Of a DNA stretch of 42,026 nucleotides, positions 20,993 through 22,284 are shown in pieces (the first letter of the stretch is position 1; every line of letters begins with the position of its first letter). The notes beneath the pieces are model-generated. The model was not told where the DNA came from and did no database searches. It saw nothing but the letters and a program-made list of their open reading frames with translations. Source of the stretch: an uncultured bacterium (GTDB lineage Bacteria > Cyanobacteriota > Vampirovibrionia > Gastranaerophilales > Gastranaerophilaceae); contig CASFXY010000020.1 in NCBI GenBank assembly GCA_949298805.1, positions 1-42,026 of the forward strand. The letters are read 5' to 3'. Made by a program: the position numbers and the translations under genes.

Positions 20993-21997
20993 ATGGTAAA
21001 TGTAGCAATTAACGGCTTCGGCAGAATTGGCCGCAACACATTAAGAGCCGCTATCAGAGAAGGTATTTTTGACAAAATTAATTACGTTGCAATTAATGAC
21101 CCCGGTTTAACACCAGCAAACGCAGCTCATGTTTTCAAATACGACTCAGTAATGGGCAGATTTGACGGCACTGTAGAAGTTGTTGAAGATGGTCTTGTAA
21201 TCAACGGTAAAAAAATTAAATTTTATGCTGAAAAAGATCCTGCACAACTTCCTTGGAAAGACCTCGGAGTTGAAGTTGTCGTTGAATCAACAGGTTTCTT
21301 TACAGATGCTACAAAAGCAAAAGCTCACTTAGATGCGGGTGCTAAAAAAGTTATTATCTCTGCGCCTGCTAAAAACGAAGACAAAACAATAGTTTTGGGT
21401 GTTAATGATAACGAATACGACCCTGCTAAACACAATATTATTTCAATGGCATCATGCACAACAAACTGTTTAGCGCCTGTTGCAAAAGTTCTTGATGAAA
21501 AATTCGGTATTGTCAAAGGTTTAATGACAACAGTTCACAGCTATACAGGTGACCAAAGAATTCTTGATGCCGGCCACAAAGACCCGCGCCGTGCCAGAGC
21601 AGGTGCTCTTAATATAGTTCCTACAACAACTGGTGCTGCTAAAGCTGTTGCATTAGTATTACCTCAATTAAAAGGTAAATTGAACGGCTTTGCTATGAGG
21701 GTTCCTACCCCCGATGTTTCAGTAGTTGATGTTGTTGTTGAAACAGCTAAACCTGTTACTGTTGAAGAAGTTAATGCCGCATTAAAAGCTGCTGCAGATG
21801 GCAAAATCCTTGCTTACGAAGAACAACCGCTTGTTTCTTCGGATTTCATCGGTTCATCACAATCATCAACAGTTGATGCCGCTTTAACAATGACAATGGG
21901 CGACAACATGGTTAAAGTTGTTTCTTGGTATGATAACGAAATGGGTTATTCAACAAGATTGGCTGAAACTACTCTGATGGTAGCTTCAAAATTATAA
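20993..21997 (+). CDS. gap: Glyceraldehyde-3-phosphate dehydrogenase, type I
   Basis: The glycolytic enzyme oxidises glyceraldehyde-3-phosphate to 1,3-bisphosphoglycerate. The 334 residues show the N-terminal NAD fold ([10 protein letters not shown]), catalytic C155 in SCTTNC and H182. The INDP segment at 35-38 has the Asp expected for NAD preference. AAGGAG lies 9 bases before the ATG. Codon use is less AT-biased and repetitive-codon, as in highly expressed genes. The last three codons are duplicated 220 bp downstream as part of a repeat cassette that lies between the stop and the terminator. Confidence 0.97.
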
Positions 21998-22027
21998 TCG
22001 AACCTTAGTGCTATGCACTTGGTGAGA
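21987..22027 (+). repeat. Outer direct repeat A, copy 1 (contains gap stop codon)
   Basis: A 41-bp sequence identical to 22207-22247. It covers the last gap codons, the TAA stop and 30 bases beyond. It includes a small hairpin (AGTGC-TAT-GCACT). Confidence 0.97.
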
Positions 22028-22041
22028 TATAATTTTGCCAT

Positions 22042-22096
22042 GGTGTGTGAGCCCGTGACGGCTGCGATGAGCAGGCGGACAGGGCAAAACCGTACC
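22042..22096 (+). repeat. Inner direct repeat B, copy 1
   Basis: 55 bp matching 22151-22205 with one difference (G at 22078, A at 22187). It contains CCGT-G-ACGG and CTGC-GATGA-GCAG mini-stems. Confidence 0.96.
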
Positions 22097-22150
22097 GTGA
22101 GCCGAGTGAGCTTAGCGCAACTGCGTTTAGCAAGCGAAAGCGAACGCATA

Positions 22151-22205
22151 GGTGTGTGAGCCCGTGACGGCTGCGATGAGCAGGCGAACAGGGCAAAACC
22201 GTACC
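22151..22205 (+). repeat. Inner direct repeat B, copy 2
   Basis: 55 bp, 54 of 55 identical to 22042-22096, offset 109 bp. It abuts the second outer repeat. Confidence 0.96.
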
Positions 22206-22206
22206 C

Positions 22207-22247
22207 CAAAATTATAATCGAACCTTAGTGCTATGCACTTGGTGAGA
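22207..22247 (+). repeat. Outer direct repeat A, copy 2
   Basis: 41 bp identical to 21987-22027. It directly precedes the gap terminator, suggesting that the original gap 3' end ran from this sequence into the hairpin at 22256. Confidence 0.97.
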
Positions 22248-22255
22248 ATAAGTTT

Positions 22256-22284
22256 AAGCCCTCCTTAGCAAGGAGGGCTTTTTT
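22256..22284 (+). terminator. Rho-independent terminator of gap
   Basis: An 11-bp stem (AAGCCCTCCTT / AAGGAGGGCTT), a 3-base AGC loop and a T run at 22279-22284. It is 258 bases after the gap stop, so the repeat cassette is part of the gap transcript. Confidence 0.95.

Follow-up and report, generated by a model that had tools for sequence, protein, structure and literature searches.

The repeat cassette at the 3' end of gap is better read as an alternating array of two hairpin modules, M-B-M-B-M, with a period of about 110 bp, than as one block placed between two copies of its target. Its modules belong to a dispersed repeat family, and tentatively, with slightly less than even confidence, we regard that family as a BIME/NIME-like non-coding mosaic of the form H-E-H-E-H (E, the ~55-nt B-type unit; H, a hairpin of the M/A type), built and homogenised by hairpin-primed template switching together with recombination. 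The argument draws on the anatomy of the array, its dispersal, the paired changes in the E units, the direct repeats in H-E-H arrangements and the agreement of a mirrored arm (X') with the gap end (X) in three sequence types. The window, i.e. the whole stretch of 42,026 nucleotides that was analysed, is contig 20 of a 1.68-Mb draft genome in 32 contigs (G000). We take its gap open reading frame to encode glyceraldehyde-3-phosphate dehydrogenase, a name that follows the initial annotation; the nearest gap sequences in named assemblies are mostly from Candidatus Gastranaerophilales metagenome bins. The features of the region are as follows.

20993-21997, + strand: gap, an open reading frame of 334 aa with conserved relatives; its last bases and stop codon lie inside the first repeat
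21987-21996, + strand: X, the final gap bases through the first two of the stop codon (CAAAATTATA), the host part of A
21998-22027, + strand: first M-type hairpin, the remainder of A copy 1
22028-22037, + strand: X' (TATAATTTTG), the exact reverse complement of X, directly after A copy 1
22042-22096, + strand: B copy 1, an E-type hairpin unit (DNA fold z -3.05)
22097-22150, + strand: the middle, a divergent M-type hairpin with a CTTAG core
22151-22205, + strand: B copy 2, an E-type hairpin unit (DNA fold z -3.47)
22207-22216, + strand: X2, the second copy of the gap end, beyond the gap open reading frame
22217-22247, + strand: last M-type hairpin, the remainder of A copy 2
22256-22284, + strand: intrinsic-terminator-like stem (22256-22280) and T run behind gap, from a consensus scan

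The initial annotation had described nested repeats in the order A-B-middle-B-A, with the gap stop codon inside the first A and the second A running toward the gap terminator, and this layout was confirmed. The A copies (21987-22027 and 22207-22247) are 41 nt each and 100% identical, and the B copies (22042-22096 and 22151-22205) are 55 nt each and 98% identical. The terminator-like stem begins 8 nt past the second A and is separate from the repeats; the consensus scan gave this 1 match, with a mean of 1.5 in shuffled sequence. The middle had been taken for a part of one inserted block, and here the reading had to be revised. Each A and the middle contain one copy of the core CTTAG(n)YTTRG; the three lie at 22004, 22111 and 22224, spaced 107 and 113 apart. 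The middle is therefore a third copy of the hairpin module within A, and the modules alternate. The 41 nt of A combine 11 nt from the end of gap, including its stop codon, with a 30-nt hairpin of the middle's own family. The two outer M copies are identical, as are the 11 nt of gap ahead of them, and the middle M has diverged.

When folded as RNA, the cassette and terminator together (21987-22284) gave z = -6.26, and none of 200 shuffles was equally stable. As DNA, the segment X-M-X' (21986-22038) gave z -6.40, again with 0 of 200 shuffles equally stable, and the middle M by itself formed no stable DNA fold (z +0.94; 172 of 200 shuffles equally stable). An assembly error that collapsed or added repeats might be suspected in a 32-contig draft with family repeats at several contig ends, but the module order recurs, diverged in sequence, in G001, G002, G004 (on a 401-kb contig), G006 and G011 (on a 292-kb contig). 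Its recurrence with different sequence in five other assemblies excludes such an error in practice, and we attach a negligible probability to it.

Copies of B and of the middle part, for which a search had been proposed at the outset, are scattered through the same genome and the genus. In G000 the E pattern (with up to 3 mismatches) was found at 6 places and the M pattern at 7, and a reversed-pattern control gave 0 matches. E/M DNA was present in 29 of 288 genomes of the bacterial family (a sample of that larger family), in 3 of 41 genera and in all 15 genomes of the genus. Many contig ends, among them G000:C7:1, G000:C15:71, G002:C45, G003:C14 and C30, G008:C10 and G013:C34, have family repeats on or close to them, so that true copy numbers are probably above those counted.

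To describe the E unit, we built a profile from 16 variants, scanned the fetched loci with it and aligned 50 distinct full-length units; these units, like the 48 arrays considered below, come from loci fetched by similarity rather than from whole genomes, many of the units are related copies, and one array and one unit (L245) are from another genus. The ends of the units are conserved, and two outer frames are common, GGTGTG...CCGTACC and AGGATG...ACTGGACT, between which the inner hairpins have been exchanged. Pairing holds in 98.5% of cells in helix 2 and in 95.7% in helix 3, the two together having few one-sided changes (6 cells), and helix 1 is weaker (76%); RNAalifold, unaided, predicted 9 of the 10 pairs of helices 2 and 3. 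Over the whole structure 108 cells were changed on both sides versus 26.8 in shuffles, and the covariation score was 0.440 versus 0.158, neither value being reached in any of 500 shuffles. Two of the five covariation measures were unexceptional: the number of pairs with a change on both sides (10 versus 8.3; reached by 49 of 500 shuffles) and the number of further pair types (23 versus 22.7; reached by 267 of 500).

The 3' end of gap was readable in 14 of the 15 genomes of the genus (G010 gave no match), and its state differs between them, so that relatives do not all share one layout. A full array is present in six of the 14 (G000, G001, G002, G004, G006 and G011), with the last M shortened in G001 and G004; one genome (G013) has M-B-M and one (G014) a truncated M-B that ends after B. 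A single A, the state that the initial annotation had named as support for insertion, was found in G003 and also, with a 14-nt internal addition, in G009 and G012 (3/14), and no A in G005, G007 and G008 (3/14). On a seven-gene tree these states are scattered; four of its inner branches have support of 58-86, and not every genome has every gene. Single-A alleles are weakened as a guide to direction and do not prove insertion, because recombination between two A copies leaves the same allele.

In G007 (L102), whose allele has no A, a short palindrome, CAAACTTTAATAAGTTTG, already lies around the gap stop, and G008 (L099) has the same palindrome with one mismatch; this may be the site at which the first M entered. 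A more distant Melainabacteria assembly (L036) has a GC-rich block of ~90 nt, of different sequence, between the gap stop and a terminator-like stem.

The array could also be an ordinary tandem one, in which an ancestral H-E was amplified by slippage and unequal recombination; it would then be old in the genus, most differences would be losses, and the likeness of X, X' and X2 would be due to later gene conversion, with no event of insertion and duplication. The period of 107-113 suits such a history, and the M-B-M of G013 and the single A of G003 are the leftovers expected of recombination between B copies and between A copies. G002 shares a similar inner M with G006 and G011, a likeness that points to an old array followed by losses. 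Against it stands the contrast between the sisters G002 and G012 (support 100; 95.8% identical over 1496 bp downstream). In G002 the array is full, and its X' and X2 conform, with one mismatch each, to the X type of that genome; G012 has a single A, as does the next relative, G009, with the same 14-nt addition; this distribution favours a gain in G002. We regard the tandem history as possible but doubtful.

In the array-bearing genomes X is GCAAACTTTA in six, GCAAGCTATA in G002 and CAAAATTATA in G000, and X' is its exact reverse complement in seven of the eight gap arrays, with one mismatch in G002; X' thus tracks X between species across three sequence types. The second copy, X2, equals X exactly in G000 and deviates at one or more of the ten bases in G001, G002, G004, G006, G011 and G013, with the bases next to the hairpin matching (X2 of G001, G004 and G011 as read directly from the sequence; G014, ending after B, has none). 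All eight arrays carry the inverted copy X', and by reading the single-A genomes G003, G009 and G012 are without the full arm. Since the reading of gap is preserved, X' presumably follows X and not the reverse.

The pairings X:X' and X':X2 are mutually exclusive, and one might see in the array a selected RNA element of the gap 3' UTR, in which X' pairs either with X, around the stop codon, or with X2, as a switch for decay or termination. The strong folds of the whole cassette and of X-M-X', and the way X' follows X in three types, agree with such a role. We nevertheless consider it very improbable, as A is absent from three of the 14 readable genomes and single in three more, the terminator-like stem is separate from the array and the same units occur at other genes. 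No Rfam family reached its gathering score in the window; the matches in 21900-22330 fell below it (the best by bits 29.4, with a gathering score of 55), and these low-threshold matches look like chance. We saw no evidence that the array serves gap.

In the 35 arrays that had both flanks and complete end units, we aligned the sequence preceding the first E unit with that following the final one; 13 of 48 had been dropped for short flanks or incomplete end units. Arrays sharing their first 50 nt were merged, which is evidently why the G006 gap array is missing, and the 35 include orthologues (six arrays at gap, two at rnpB). A direct repeat score of at least 16 was reached by 23 of 35 arrays versus 43 of 1076 cross-locus pairs, and a score of at least 20 by 20 of 35 versus 13 of 1076, pairs with like flanks having been excluded from this control. 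Without the six gap arrays the counts were 17/29 at score 16 and 14/29 at score 20. Twelve of the 35 arrays scored below 16. The repeats in the 23 positive arrays are locus-specific and 18-54 bp long, with up to 54 of 54 positions identical, so that a long locus-specific copy is common in the family and not peculiar to gap.

Inverted matches between the flanks are a different matter: a match of at least 7 nt was found in 7 of 35 arrays, namely 5 of 6 at gap, 2 of 2 at rnpB and 0 of 27 elsewhere (cross-locus, 16 of 1076), and at rnpB it falls within the hairpin itself. The idea that all arms of the family are exact mirrors was accordingly rejected. A run of at least 6 T lies within ~160 nt upstream in 5 of 48 arrays, and in four of these five (L004, L005, L111 and L161) it ends 54-57 nt before E, which means that the first hairpin starts a few bases from a terminator-like T run.

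The initial annotation had proposed an insertion, or a duplication, that left a target copy of 41 bp. The evidence supports insertion with duplication: single-A relatives exist, B and the middle are dispersed and most of the tested arrays have flanking direct repeats. A classical transposon whose target copy is 41 bp long is unsupported, as 30 of the 41 nt of A are a family hairpin and the duplicated length varies between loci. For similar reasons we consider it improbable that E is a non-autonomous, MITE-like transposon moved by an unseen transposase, with A as target duplication. Its units are dispersed, and sites with a single A or a single hairpin do exist; the conserved ends of E fit an enzyme better than free template switching and so count against our own proposal. 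However, A is mostly a family hairpin itself, the duplication has no fixed length (18-54 bp among the 23 positive arrays), and Y1 and Cas1 are missing from 14 and all 15, respectively, of the 15 genomes.

Searches for mobile enzymes covered Y1, RVT_1 and Cas1, Y1 being the only transposase among them. The Y1 transposase (PF01797; RAYT) had 0 matches in 14 of the 15 genus genomes, G000 included, and 1 match in G004, the drafts being 75-99% complete; it was rejected as the mover on account of its absence from 14 of 15. Since CRISPR likewise involves a duplicated repeat, Cas1 was also considered; Cas1-type integration was rejected, as Cas1 was found in 0 of the 15 genomes, with a control search positive in 9 of 14 well-known genomes. 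The reverse transcriptase domain RVT_1 gave 12 matches in 9 of 15 genomes; none of the 10 loci returned for these 12 matches held an E unit or M core, so that we drew no link between reverse transcriptase and the repeats. In G000 itself (L292, 395-1930 on G000:C21) the reverse transcriptase is 385 aa long and preceded by a 120-aa open reading frame, an arrangement that we take to resemble a diversity-generating retroelement.

A second case, weaker than gap, lies behind a gene that we take, from its 3' sequence, to be rnpB (RNase P RNA). Its end was read in 12 of 15 genomes; in G006, G008 and G013 the rnpB portion of the query matched nothing. G000, G001, G004 and G014 have no such hairpin, and in G005 there is a single terminator-like hairpin with a T run behind it. 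Hairpin-E-hairpin is found in G002, G009, G010, G011 and G012, with the E unit interrupted by another insert in G002, G009 and G010; G007 has the hairpin and E and then the contig end, and G003 a different mosaic. The arms of the first hairpin extend 9 bp beyond the core in G002, G009, G010, G011, G012 and G007, in two sequence types, versus 5 in G005. In the second copy the arms pair for 1 base beyond the core, and its right-hand arm bases are still retained in four genomes. This is a weaker parallel to the mirror arm at gap, the arm lengthening only from 5 to 9 pairs, and at both loci the direction of change would presumably be one of gain.

The rnpB locus also bears on the tandem history, in both directions. 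The hairpin, with up to 3 mismatches allowed, has 12 matches in the genus and every one of them is at rnpB; it is thus no module of the family, which speaks against such a history. In favour of it are the bases resembling the start of another E unit after the second rnpB hairpin in G009 and G010.

In the template-switching account that we prefer, an E unit would be copied in beside an existing hairpin, with a second copy of that hairpin arising beyond the unit. At gap, this duplication would take in host bases, and the arm of the first copy would be extended as their mirror. We infer the following order: the nascent strand would fold on the hairpin and copy its own arm, giving X'; it would then switch into a homologous E unit elsewhere and return upstream of the hairpin, which would thereby be duplicated. 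All three additions, namely mirror arm, E unit and second hairpin copy, could come from one series of switches. Recombination between units would afterwards add or delete E-H pairs, and later fold-back copying would keep X, X' and X2 alike. Counting against this account are the 12 arrays below score 16, the confinement of inverted flank matches to gap and rnpB, the short arm gain and the retained right-hand bases at rnpB, the two unexceptional covariation measures and the weaker helix 1, the relatedness of many E units, the likeness of the inner M in three gap arrays and the inexact X2 in six genomes. We think it rather unlikely that E units in general are transposase-free mobile hairpins which spread by self-primed copying at hairpins or terminators behind genes, each insertion duplicating the local hairpin and sometimes mirroring the last bases of the host gene, to give the locus-specific flanks of 18-54 bp.

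At another locus, behind one gene and before another, species alternate between alleles that hold GC-rich repeat mosaics and alleles that do not, and the occupied ones differ in their mosaics of the E/M family and other repeats. The upstream gene is presumably a histidine kinase gene. In G000 (L003, ~1490-1510, on G000:C18) and the orthologues in G008 (L178), G003 (L179) and G013 (L180), the array starts at the very end of this gene and appears to supply its stop codon (...DKNP or DKNA, then TGA or TAA), and in relatives without the array the gene ends differently. L178, L179 and L180, together with L215, also contain intergenic runs of another palindromic repeat, CCTGAAAC-n-GTTCAGGGTGAC, of which L178 and L179 carry a GTCATGCTGAA form as well.

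These observations bear on how short bacterial hairpin repeats spread and stay paired without an evident transposase. At gap and rnpB, states with and without the unit are seen in related species, and because the copied segment is recognisable host sequence, direction and breakpoints are legible base by base. If the account is confirmed, paired double changes, which are often held to prove a selected RNA structure, would be partly a by-product of copying.

Among the papers listed by our literature searches, none was on these repeats in Gastranaerophilales. Like the BIMEs (bacterial interspersed mosaic elements built of REP palindromes) of E. coli and Stenotrophomonas, they are dispersed extragenic palindromes in mosaic arrays, though in few copies: short GC-rich palindromes alternate with other segments, and pairing is kept through paired changes. 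PMC2817692 describes four cases in which the 3' end of a rayt gene, with bases past its stop, is built into a BIME, the nearest precedent for the copied gap end. The same paper describes the REPs of BIMEs as alternating in orientation, with a GT(A/G)G head. In contrast, the gap modules by our reading all have one orientation and none of the aligned E units has a GTAG or GTGG head; copy number is low, Y1 transposase is missing in 14 of 15 genomes, the flanking segment is locus-specific and the host arm is mirrored at gap.

NIMEs (neisserial intergenic mosaic elements, made of dRS3 and RS repeats) likewise join a short palindrome to longer units in arrays between genes (PMC3898611). There the constant part is the dRS3 palindrome, whereas here it is the B unit and the flanking hairpin varies with the locus; the exact dRS3 pattern ATTCCC(N8)GGGAAT had 0 matches in the 298 fetched loci. 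The pneumococcal BOX element (boxA-boxB(n)-boxC) shares modular predicted stem-loops and a variable number of inner modules, but it has distinct end modules (PMC3049150), and both ends here are copies of one local hairpin. Template switching, according to PMC8794818, can make and repair perfect stems and give paired double changes, and the inverted copies of a neighbouring arm and the hairpin correction treated there resemble ours; those events are local within stem loops, however, whereas in our case the addition of a dispersed E unit goes with duplication of the hairpin. The mirrored host arm and the locus-specific flanks set the family apart, and its closest resemblance is to BIMEs.
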